Positions 36,976 to 40,466 of a stretch of 64,000 bases of DNA are shown piece by piece. The position numbers were made by a program, and so were the translations under genes. The notes beneath the pieces are model-generated. The model made no database searches, was not told the origin of the DNA, and saw only the letters and a program-made list of their open reading frames with translations. The DNA comes from Pseudalkalibacillus sp. SCS-8 (GTDB lineage: Bacteria > Bacillota > Bacilli > Bacillales > Fictibacillaceae). The stretch spans positions 682,001 to 746,000 of the forward strand of contig NZ_CP143541.1 in assembly GCF_040126055.1 (NCBI RefSeq), given 5' to 3'. Each line of letters begins with the position of its first letter. Positions within the stretch are counted from its first letter, which is position 1.

Positions 36976-38718
36976 ATGAATAGTCTCGTGTTAGCATTAG
37001 TTGGACTTTCTATCTTTTTCTTAGGTTATCGCTTTTATTCGAAGTTTATTGCGGAGAAAATCTACCGCTTAGATCCGAATTATGTGACCCCAGCTCACAA
37101 ATACAAGGATGGTGTCGATTTCGTCCCGACAAACCGTTTTGTGTTATGGGGACACCATTATAGCTCTGTTGCAGGTGCTGCACCGATCATCGGTCCGGCC
37201 ATCGCGGTTTACTGGGGCTGGCTGCCAGCTGTACTTTGGGTCATTTTAGGTACGGTTTTCGCGGCGGGTGTACATGATTTTGGAACACTGGTCTTATCGG
37301 TCCGTAACAAGGGACAATCAGTTGGTACGATCGCCAGCAGGCTGATTGGAAAAAGGGCCAAGGTCTTGTTCTTATTCATCATTCTTATTCTGGTCCTCAT
37401 GGTCAACGCTGTCTTTGCTTGGGCGATCGCGAAGTTGTTCGTATCATTCCCGGCATCGGTGTTGTCGATTTTCATCCAGATTCCACTCGCGATCTGGATC
37501 GGTTACTCGGTTTATAAAAAGAAAGGCAGCATGCTGTTGCCATCCATCATCGCTTTGGCGTTCATGTATGGAGCAGCTGTAGTAGCATCCAAAGTACCTG
37601 CCCTTCAAGTCGACCTCGTCAAATGGTTCGGGGGAGAAGAAAACACTGTCATGTTCGGACTCAACGGTGTTTCGATGGCATTCTTTGTATGGATCGTCGT
37701 TTTGATGGTGTATGTGTATATCGCTTCAACACTCCCAGTTTGGAAGCTATTACAGCCGAGGGATTACATCAACTCGCATCAGCTTGTGATCGGATTATTG
37801 ATGCTTTATGCAGGGGTATTGTTTGCTGCACCTACAATTACAGCACCAGCAACGAATCCGGATGCATCGATGTCAATCTTCCCGTTATTGTTCATTACGA
37901 TTGCGTGCGGCGCGATCTCAGGCTTCCACGGGCTCGTTTCATCCGGAACATCGTCCAAGCAGCTCGATAAAGAGACAGATGCCCGCTTTGTCGGTTATGC
38001 CGGTGCGGTAGGAGAAGGGATGCTTGCGCTTCTTTCCATTATCGCCGTAACGACATTATTTTCTACTGGTGCTGATTTTAAAAATGCGTACAGCAGTTTC
38101 GCGGCAGCGAGCAGTGGCGGTTTAGGGAACTTCATCAACGGAGCAGCTCAGCTTGCAGCAGGGATCGGAATTCCAGCAGAAATCGCAGCAACGATCGTTG
38201 CGGTCATCGTCATCAGCTTCGCTGCAACATCCCTTGATACATCCGTCCGTTTGATGCGTTATATCATTTCCGAGCTCGGAACGGAATATAACGTCCCAGC
38301 TTTGACAAAAGCACACGTGGCAACGACGATTGCAGTCGGATCAAGTGCAGCGCTCGTCTTGTTACCGGAAGGACCGAATGGATTCGGTTCCGGTGGATAC
38401 CTGCTCTGGCCTCTGTTTGGAACATCAAACCAATTGTTAGCCGGAATCAGCTTATTGCTTGTATCCATCTGGTTGAAACGACAAGGTAGAAACTTCATGC
38501 CGACCTTCCTTCCGATGGTCTTCCTGTTATTCATGACCATCTGGGCAATGACGAAGCAAGTCGTGTTCGAATGGTCAGGATTAGGTGAAGCAGATGCAAA
38601 CATGCTGTTGTTCATCTTCGGTGCAGCGATTCTCGGATTTGCCATTTGGATCATCCTGGAGGCATTCAGCGTCCTTTCCAAGAAAACATCACCTGAAGAC
38701 CTGGACAAGTCAGCTTAA
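36976..38718 (+). CDS. Carbon starvation protein CstA-type transporter
   Basis: A 580-residue membrane protein with about 15 to 16 helices. Segments VDFVPTNRFVLWGHHYSSVAGAAPI and CGAISGFHGLVSSGTSSKQ are diagnostic of the CstA family, which imports pyruvate or peptides; it is shorter than E. coli CstA (701) and nearer to the other Bacillus members. A strong sigma-A promoter precedes it and a terminator follows at 38752. GGAGGGG precedes the ATG. Confidence 0.9.
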   Translation: MNSLVLALVGLSIFFLGYRFYSKFIAEKIYRLDPNYVTPAHKYKDGVDFVPTNRFVLWGHHYSSVAGAAPIIGPAIAVYWGWLPAVLWVILGTVFAAGVHDFGTLVLSVRNKGQSVGTIASRLIGKRAKVLFLFIILILVLMVNAVFAWAIAKLFVSFPASVLSIFIQIPLAIWIGYSVYKKKGSMLLPSIIALAFMYGAAVVASKVPALQVDLVKWFGGEENTVMFGLNGVSMAFFVWIVVLMVYVYIASTLPVWKLLQPRDYINSHQLVIGLLMLYAGVLFAAPTITAPATNPDASMSIFPLLFITIACGAISGFHGLVSSGTSSKQLDKETDARFVGYAGAVGEGMLALLSIIAVTTLFSTGADFKNAYSSFAAASSGGLGNFINGAAQLAAGIGIPAEIAATIVAVIVISFAATSLDTSVRLMRYIISELGTEYNVPALTKAHVATTIAVGSSAALVLLPEGPNGFGSGGYLLWPLFGTSNQLLAGISLLLVSIWLKRQGRNFMPTFLPMVFLLFMTIWAMTKQVVFEWSGLGEADANMLLFIFGAAILGFAIWIILEAFSVLSKKTSPEDLDKSA

Positions 38719-38751
38719 TCAACAATCACCTTTACTAGAATGAACAATCAA

Positions 38752-38779
38752 AGAAGGTCGGGCGTCCGGCCTTCTTTTT
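38752..38779 (+). terminator. Terminator of the CstA-type gene
   Basis: AGAAGGtCGG / CCGgCCTTCT with a T run. Confidence 0.85.
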
Positions 38780-38835
38780 ATACAAAGGAAGGGGAACCTG
38801 AACGAATATTGTTATTTTGAAAAGGAGGCACTAAG

Positions 38836-39234
38836 ATGAGGAAAGAATTGATGATCATCCGTGTTTGGCCTGAAGTCGGTGGAGGTTGATGTGGCGGCGT
38901 TTCTGGTGACGGGTTCATCAGCATGAAGGAACAATTTGAAGACGATTTGGACGAAATGCGTGAAACGGGTAAGATTTATCAGCTGGTCGGAGAACGTTTC
39001 GGTGACCGGGTAAACGTGACATTCGTCGATCCTCGAAATATCCTCACTATCATGAGCTTTATGTTCCGGCATTTGATGAAAAGGGAAATTGGAATCGGTG
39101 CAATGCTCAAAAATACGTTTTGGGGATCGAGAAGAGGTGCAATGTTCCTGAACGGTCATTGGATTAATCAAAATACACAAACCGACGAAGAGATCATCAA
39201 TACGTTACAACAGGAATTAGGTGTAGATGAATGA
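38836..39234 (+). CDS. Candidate selenoprotein: small Sec-Cys protein with in-frame UGA
   Basis: Reading from ATG 38836 (AAAGGAGG is 7 bases upstream) gives 132 codons with one in-frame TGA at 38887-38889, codon 18, directly followed by Cys: GGG-U-C-GG. The reading continues without further stops to TGA 39232-39234. A SECIS-like hairpin follows (38903-38921). The next internal start, ATG 38923, has no good ribosome site and would lose the redox motif. An N-terminal beta strand, a vicinal Sec-Cys and helices after it suggest a thioredoxin-like or ArsD-like fold. Alternatives: a nonsense mutation or a base error. The downstream overlapping gene and an ArsA-type ATPase suggest it works with them. 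Confidence 0.72.
38903..38921 (+). promoter_or_regulatory. Bacterial SECIS-like hairpin after the in-frame UGA
   Basis: CTGGTGA (38903-38909) pairs with TCATCAG (38915-38921) in seven pairs (one G-U), leaving a five-base apical loop CGGGT. The loop begins 20 bases after the UGA and has G in its second position. Bacterial SECIS elements are short hairpins just 3' of UGA with a G in the first two loop bases and a UGA-loop distance of roughly 16-37. Confidence 0.6.
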
Positions 39235-39518: not shown

Positions 39519-40466
39519 ATGAAAAAAATTATGAATAAGAAAATCGTCTTTTTCGGAGGAAAAGGCGGAGTCGGAAAATCTACTTCTGCTTCGGCTTTTG
39601 CACTCACTCTCGCAAGACAAGGTAAGCGAACTTTACTCGTATCAACGGACCCTGCACATAATGTAGGCGATATCTTCCATAAAAAGCTAACAGGTAAGCC
39701 GAAGACGTTGACGGACAATCTCTGGGCTGTGGAAATCGATCCAGATGAAGAAACGAAGCGGTATTTGGACGTGGTGAAGAAGAATCTGAAAGGGCTCGTC
39801 AAATCCAAAATGATTGAAGAAGTCCATCGGCAGATCGACTTGGCGGCTGGGTCACCAGGTGCTGATGAAGCAGCCCTGTTTGACAGGCTTGTCTCAATCA
39901 TCCTTGATGAAAAGGATGCCTACGATACGATCGTGTTTGATACTGCCCCGACAGGTCATACGATTCGACTTCTTACATTGCCTGAATTGATGGGTGCATG
40001 GATTGATGGAATGCTGAAACGTCGTGAGAGTATGAACGAGAACTACTCCGAATGGATGGGGGATGGCGAACCAATCGAGGATCCGATCTATGACATCCTC
40101 CATAAACGGAAAGAACGGTTTGCTGCTGTCCGCAAAGTCTTGCTGGATGATCAACAATCCGAATATGTTTTCGTCCTGAATCCTGAACGTCTTCCGATCG
40201 TTGAAACGGAAAAAGCAGTGGAAACGCTAAGAAAGCATGATATCCATGTGAGAACATTGGTTGTGAATAAGCTGCTTCCAAAGGGTGAGGCCAGCTCCTT
40301 TTTCCAGAAGCGAATCGAGCAGGAGAAAGAATACCTACGTTGGATTGAAGACACATTCAAGCAAGAGAAAATCCTTATTCCGCTCCTTGATGGAGACGTT
40401 TCCTCACTTGAAGCCCTCCATCAAATCAGTGAAAAGATGGAGAAGGAGCTCTATGTCGAAAAATAG
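39519..40466 (+). CDS. ArsA/Get3-family ATPase (single-domain)
   Basis: A 315-residue P-loop ATPase of the SIMIBI class: deviant Walker A GGKGGVGKST (about residues 14-23), switch I DPAHN and switch II DTAPTGHTIRLL. It has only one ATPase half (Get3/TRC40-like and bacterial single-domain ArsA homologues) and lacks Cys, so the metalloid-binding Cys triad of true ArsA is absent. ATG 39519 chosen over TTG 39507 and ATG 39531. It lies 21 bases after the CC-ending gene, so the three genes form one operon. Function here is unknown. Confidence 0.9.
   Translation: MKKIMNKKIVFFGGKGGVGKSTSASAFALTLARQGKRTLLVSTDPAHNVGDIFHKKLTGKPKTLTDNLWAVEIDPDEETKRYLDVVKKNLKGLVKSKMIEEVHRQIDLAAGSPGADEAALFDRLVSIILDEKDAYDTIVFDTAPTGHTIRLLTLPELMGAWIDGMLKRRESMNENYSEWMGDGEPIEDPIYDILHKRKERFAAVRKVLLDDQQSEYVFVLNPERLPIVETEKAVETLRKHDIHVRTLVVNKLLPKGEASSFFQKRIEQEKEYLRWIEDTFKQEKILIPLLDGDVSSLEALHQISEKMEKELYVEK

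Follow-up and report, generated by a model that had tools for sequence, protein, structure and literature searches.

Within the 64,000-nucleotide stretch of the Pseudalkalibacillus sp. SCS-8 genome that was analysed (the window), the forward-strand reading frame at 38836-39234 carries a UGA at codon 18. This raises the question of whether the codon is a stop or is read as selenocysteine (Sec) and, if it is read, what the protein does.

Probable decoding of the in-frame UGA

The initial annotation, drawn from the sequence alone, had proposed a selenoprotein gene here, and the layout that it described was confirmed. ATG 38836 follows a Shine-Dalgarno sequence, AAAGGAGG (38821-38828), at a distance of 7 bases. 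The translation begins MRKELMIIRVWPEVGGGUCGGVSGDGFISMKEQ, with the UGA (38887-38889) directly before the TGT of Cys19 (38890-38892) in the motif GGG-U-CGG. A further 114 codons lead to a stop TGA (39232-39234) that shares bases with the start codon of the following gene (ATG at 39231), giving a product of 132 amino acids with Sec18. The start that was expected in a conventional annotation, 38923-38925, is an in-frame ATG, and no Shine-Dalgarno sequence was found in front of it.

Selection acts at the protein level on the codons that precede the UGA: among five members of the genus, pN/pS was 0.21 for codons 2-17 compared with 0.36 for the remainder. Against a profile built from homologues with the window sequence left out, the full-length protein scored 80.6 bits, compared with 62.3 bits for the part that starts around the internal ATG (38923) and a maximum of 72.5 bits for versions with a shuffled N-terminus (n = 1000). 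The Cys forms of the protein possess a homologous N-terminus, with Cys at the Sec site.

A homologue was present in 12 of 399 genomes of the class, and a profile search identified 14, of which one is a fragment and another a weak partial match. Most of these have Cys at the site, two distant copies (L017 and L018) have UGA, and the residue that follows is always Cys. Relatives in the same order provided 12 more copies, with UGA in L058-L062 (same genus) and L064-L069 (other families) and Cys in L063. The 25 homologues, window included, comprise 14 UGA and 11 Cys forms with no other residue at the site, so that the check for Cys at codon 18 proposed in the initial annotation was met. A sequencing error is excluded, since TGA occurs at the same codon in 13 other genomes; this also rules out a read-level correction of the TGA, which had been named as grounds for refutation together with a lack of homologues bearing U or C and the absence of selA, selB, selC and selD.

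A 7-bp hairpin of the bacterial SECIS (bSECIS) type follows at 38903-38921 on the forward strand, as had also been claimed. The sequence CTGGTGA-CGGGT-TCATCAG forms seven pairs, one of them G-U, and the loop CGGGT (38910-38914) starts 20 nt past the UGA. Published bSECIS constraints (PMC13188914) require a loop of 3-9 nt, a stem of 4-16 bp, a UGA-to-loop distance of 16-37 nt, a G within the first two loop positions and an MFE of at most -7.5; the hairpin satisfies them (loop 5, stem 7, 20 nt, G second, -10.3 for 50 nt), although this is a comparison with the constraints and not bSECISearch output. As a single hairpin it is weak evidence, because 2.8% of dinucleotide shuffles contained one of equal or better quality at an allowed position and 1.5% of TGA triplets in the window have a hairpin of -5.5 kcal/mol or better downstream. 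The fold itself is ordinary (MFE z-score -0.03 for the 50 nt after the UGA), and the case for a selenoprotein therefore rests on comparison rather than on folding. The strict hairpin filter missed the UGA of the genome's own selD and passed the Cys form L016 by chance; hairpin presence alone thus neither proves nor excludes Sec. An Rfam search over the region gave no meaningful match.

Conservation in 11 further UGA-bearing relatives places the hairpin far above chance. The 7-bp stem is kept, with every position paired, in each of the order's 12 UGA copies; two pairs alternate between A-U and G-U, and the outermost pair is swapped from C-G to G-C in L067, the one double compensatory change. 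As the stem hardly varies, covariation alone is modest, and its score was equalled in 44 of 500 shuffles. The codons GGG-TTC-ATC (loop and 3' arm) are invariant among 11 UGA sequences, with a mean synonym heterozygosity of 0.15 compared with 0.59 at equally conserved residues elsewhere (p = 0.0013). In the five genus members, pS for hairpin codons 23-29 was 0.086 versus about 0.75 elsewhere, approximately ninefold lower. The Cys copy L063 reads GGC-TTT-GTG-GAG at this site and, judged from its sequence, has no such stem.

The genome, a single contig of 3.62 Mb, contains selA (E 2.7e-168), selB over its curated cut-off, tRNA-Sec and selD, and none of the testable grounds for refutation was fulfilled. 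The selD frame extends upstream through its own in-frame UGA to include SKGGUGCKI (L008:10076-11077, minus strand of the same genome). One or more further selenoprotein genes can therefore be recognised in this genome, and selD is likewise liable to N-terminal truncation in standard annotation. PhnD/PhnE/PhnC-like ABC transporter genes lie within sel clusters in this genome (L008:7627-10043) and at L046:1333-3779; the L046 binding protein exceeds the cut-off of TIGR04553, a putative selenate-binding family, and its counterpart in our genome falls below it.

The distribution of the machinery was also compared with that of the UGA. L063, the Cys copy, is sister to L067 (support 97/96), and its genome has neither selA nor a tRNA-Sec over the cut-off. 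UGA, hairpin and machinery were thus lost together, which is what a selenoprotein predicts. The main exception is G739 (L061), in which UGA and hairpin are intact and genome searches found neither selA nor a strong tRNA-Sec; both were present in its near twin, G737 (L062), and a recent loss of machinery or an assembly gap is possible. G788 (L067), a draft of some 200 contigs, has selA and no strong tRNA-Sec match. In the class sample, genomes with a family member, whether of the Sec or the Cys form, carry selA more often than the others (9/12 versus 77/387, p = 9e-5); this p-value serves only as a guide because the genomes are related. Among genomes that hold the family, Sec versus Cys form showed no significant tie to selA (p = 0.12).

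Comparison therefore supports the original inference that selenocysteine is inserted at UGA 38887, and we consider insertion very likely, although incorporation has not been shown by experiment. SelB and tRNA-Sec would decode the UGA as selenocysteine, directed by the hairpin at 38903-38921. The presence of machinery and hairpin is shown, whereas decoding is inferred, as the evidence for it is comparative.

Family novelty and predicted fold

No model of Pfam or NCBIfam release 20 was reached by the protein or its tested relatives, a sequence search of the PDB with the protein gave no match, and none of the 119 prokaryotic families and subfamilies of selenoproteins listed in a 2026 inventory (PMC13188914) has this motif and context. 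Given the absence from the Pfam and NCBIfam models and from this inventory, we assign the protein to a new family of selenoproteins, a kind of protein already known. The newness of the family, its membership of a CstA operon and its cory-CC-star neighbour had been missed by the initial annotation.

Across 13 diverse members the invariant residues are Arg9, Sec/Cys18, Cys19, Gly24, Gly45, Asp65-Pro-Arg-Asn68 and Gly107. Two scans of contigs from named-organism genomes returned a single locus, a Cys form in Melghirimyces profundicolus. No additional member was found in a phylum-wide sample of 348 genomes, so the family appears confined to the class within the genomes sampled. One member, at L055:7876-8223 (G347), has SGCY instead of SGCC and a divergent C-terminus, and is possibly frame-shifted or decaying.

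Structure models (pLDDT 68 and 76), for which the input alignments held two sequences only, show the order strand, UC loop, helix, strand, helix, strand, strand, helix. The best structural matches were thioredoxins, none of them significant (E > 0.001, TM about 0.4). A thioredoxin-like fold is likely, in which the adjacent Sec and Cys would sit in the loop that follows strand one, but this is a prediction from models of moderate confidence and structural matches of low significance. Known thioredoxin-like selenoproteins with UxxC, CxU or UxC motifs (PMC13188914, Table 1) share the probable fold and the position of Sec after the first strand; the window protein differs in its vicinal U-C, its DPRN motif, the lack of a Thioredoxin Pfam match and its gene context.

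Membership of several known families was considered and rejected. For SelT/SelW/SelH (TIGR02174), one homologue reached 16 bits of the 34.2 needed and the window protein gave no match; its motif is UC and not the CxxU that these proteins require. Scores for SelW/T/H and MTH895/ArsE were weak, at chance level and restricted to single homologues. ArsD and VcpD (NF047871) resemble the protein in size, in an N-terminal vicinal Cys pair and in a nearby ArsA-type ATPase. However, PF06953 matched neither the protein nor anything in its genome, and the ArsD structure 3kgk appeared among the fold matches with a probability of only 0.18. VcpD scores were far below the cut-off in some homologues (at most 17.9 bits versus 90 needed) and absent for the window protein, with hhalign detecting a weak likeness to one ArsD-related VcpD (probability 70). 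DUF466/KCU-star proteins (YbdD, YjiX) are similarly small partners of CstA-type transporters with a selenium or thiol pair, but there was no family or sequence match, and Sec is residue 18, preceding Cys near the N-terminus of a 132-residue protein, with no C-terminal Cys-Sec.

Gene neighbourhood and proposed role

The selenoprotein gene lies in a forward-strand cluster. Upstream is a cstA-like gene (36976-38718) for a CstA family transporter of 580 amino acids, which matches PRK15015 at E 9e-72, below the cut-off, and is 72% identical to the L046 CstA, itself matching PF02554 at E 3e-150. Downstream are a cory-CC-star gene (NF041419; 39231-39497; E 4.9e-37, over the curated cut-off), the product of which ends Cys-Cys-COOH, and an ArsA/Get3-type ATPase gene (39519-40466; TIGR00345 at E 3.3e-88, over the cut-off; PF02374). 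This order is kept in 14 of 14 UGA copies and in the Cys copies L063 and L011. Although cory-CC-star is a separate family to which the selenoprotein does not belong, the two genes adjoin, and at L068:1495-2166 they form a natural in-frame fusion of 224 amino acids with one UGA, ending GIRCC. More distant Cys copies mostly have CstA just upstream and lack both cory-CC-star and the ATPase, three of them are without a nearby CstA, and an ATPase gene next to the family member is missing in half of the Cys forms. The task of the family is therefore not tied to cory-CC-star everywhere. Just upstream of cstA, L044:5925-6491 encodes an unnamed protein with no Pfam or NCBIfam match; similar-sized frames occur in L043, L045, L048 and L049, and these proteins, of about 180-220 amino acids, are found in loci with divergent Cys forms.

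An intrinsic-terminator-like hairpin (38750-38777, forward strand; 12-bp stem, -18.3 kcal/mol, z -5.3) occupies the gap between cstA and the selenoprotein gene, and most relatives of the order have similar hairpins at the same place. Co-transcription of the two genes is for this reason not certain; the downstream genes may have their own promoter, or the remaining cluster may be subject to attenuation.

A gene pair for a LytS-type sensor kinase and a LytTR regulator precedes cstA in G020, G138 and the Cys locus of G023, with domains confirmed for the G020 pair and the G138 regulator. In E. coli, pyruvate is bound by the LytS-type sensor BtsS, which acts together with BtsR to switch on btsT, the gene of a pyruvate transporter (PMC10653868). 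Pyruvate uptake by E. coli CstA requires the small protein YbdD (PMC5847655), a member of DUF466. Proteins of that family have Cys-Cys at the C-terminus, replaced by Cys-Sec in some Epsilonproteobacteria (PMC4607533). By analogy, we infer that cory-CC-star may be the counterpart of YbdD in this cluster, with a parallel Cys-Cys tail. Searches of the literature on cory-CC-star, VcpD, and CstA with selenoprotein gave no relevant paper, and the combination of selenoprotein, cory-CC-star and ArsA-type ATPase in a CstA cluster is undescribed in the literature searched.

We conclude that 38836-39234 probably encodes a selenoprotein of the CstA/cory-CC-star system, although its function has not been shown. 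The partnership with cory-CC-star is also likely; like service to CstA, it is an inference from a gene order that does not vary and from a single natural fusion. The selenoprotein would act as a redox partner, or a carrier of thiol-bound cargo, for the C-terminal Cys-Cys tail of cory-CC-star, and both proteins would serve the CstA-family transporter of the same cluster, with the ArsA/Get3-type ATPase as a third partner whose task is undetermined. Redox exchange between the selenoprotein and that tail, which is likewise inferred, falls just short of an even chance in our judgement. Whether the Sec-Cys pair would pass electrons, a metal(loid) or another thiol-bound group cannot be told. A bolder reading, which is no more than possible, is that a selenol-dependent thiol relay or hand-over of a thiol-bound cofactor controls the transporter: the Sec-Cys protein would react with the Cys-Cys tail, assisted by the ATPase. 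The assignment to the CstA/cory-CC-star system as a whole also draws support by analogy from CstA-YbdD (PMC5847655) and the Cys-Sec tail of DUF466 (PMC4607533).

Alternative explanations and significance

The alternative that best survives is that the Sec-Cys protein is not a redox carrier and instead brings metal(loid)s to the ArsA-type ATPase as a chaperone, as ArsD does for ArsA. The ATPase gene is a neighbour of all UGA copies, and the protein has a vicinal Cys/Sec pair close to its N-terminus and the weak hhalign likeness to VcpD. Against this, PF06953 finds no match in the protein or its genome, thioredoxins lead the fold matches and ArsD 3kgk is only a low-probability one, and the ATPase does not adjoin half of the Cys forms. 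A chaperone role remains possible, since the ATPase is a neighbour and the distant likeness to VcpD exists.

A second alternative, which we consider unlikely, is that the family serves selenium metabolism itself, for example as a selenium carrier, and that its link to CstA is secondary. The enrichment in selA genomes given above favours this, as do a Cys copy near selA and selD in G031 and G064 and near selA in G049, and the presence in G020 of selD, a putative selenate ABC transporter, selA and selB just upstream of the cluster. However, G031, G064 and G049 all belong to one family (f23), where the copies run towards selA from the opposite strand, and their proximity may be shared synteny. 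In addition, selA is missing from three Cys-form genomes of the class sample, the cstA/selenoprotein cluster of the window genome lies about 1 Mb from the sel genes, and CstA is the more constant neighbour.

Very unlikely is the standard reading of the frame, in which translation of the protein begins at ATG 38923 and the UGA truly ends a short upstream frame that is unrelated or regulatory: the UGA kept in G739 without detectable Sec machinery is in its favour, but selection on the codons before the UGA, the conserved synonymous codons of the hairpin, the homologous N-terminus of the Cys forms and the missing Shine-Dalgarno sequence at 38923 all argue against it.

The protein represents a further selenoprotein family, one not captured by current models, so that annotation of its genes is apt to leave out the active site. 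It gives selenium, in addition, a second link to CstA-type transport. In KCU-star, Sec lies in the tail of the partner; in the window system, it lies in a separate protein beside a Cys-Cys-tailed partner. If the proposed relay is true, there would be a chemical role for the Cys-Cys or Cys-Sec tails of the CstA partners YbdD, KCU-star and cory-CC-star. The fusion in L068 and the Sec/Cys swaps lead to concrete hypotheses, namely a mixed selenenylsulfide and a role in transport, and a selenium-dependent step in CstA (pyruvate/peptide-type) transport becomes testable.
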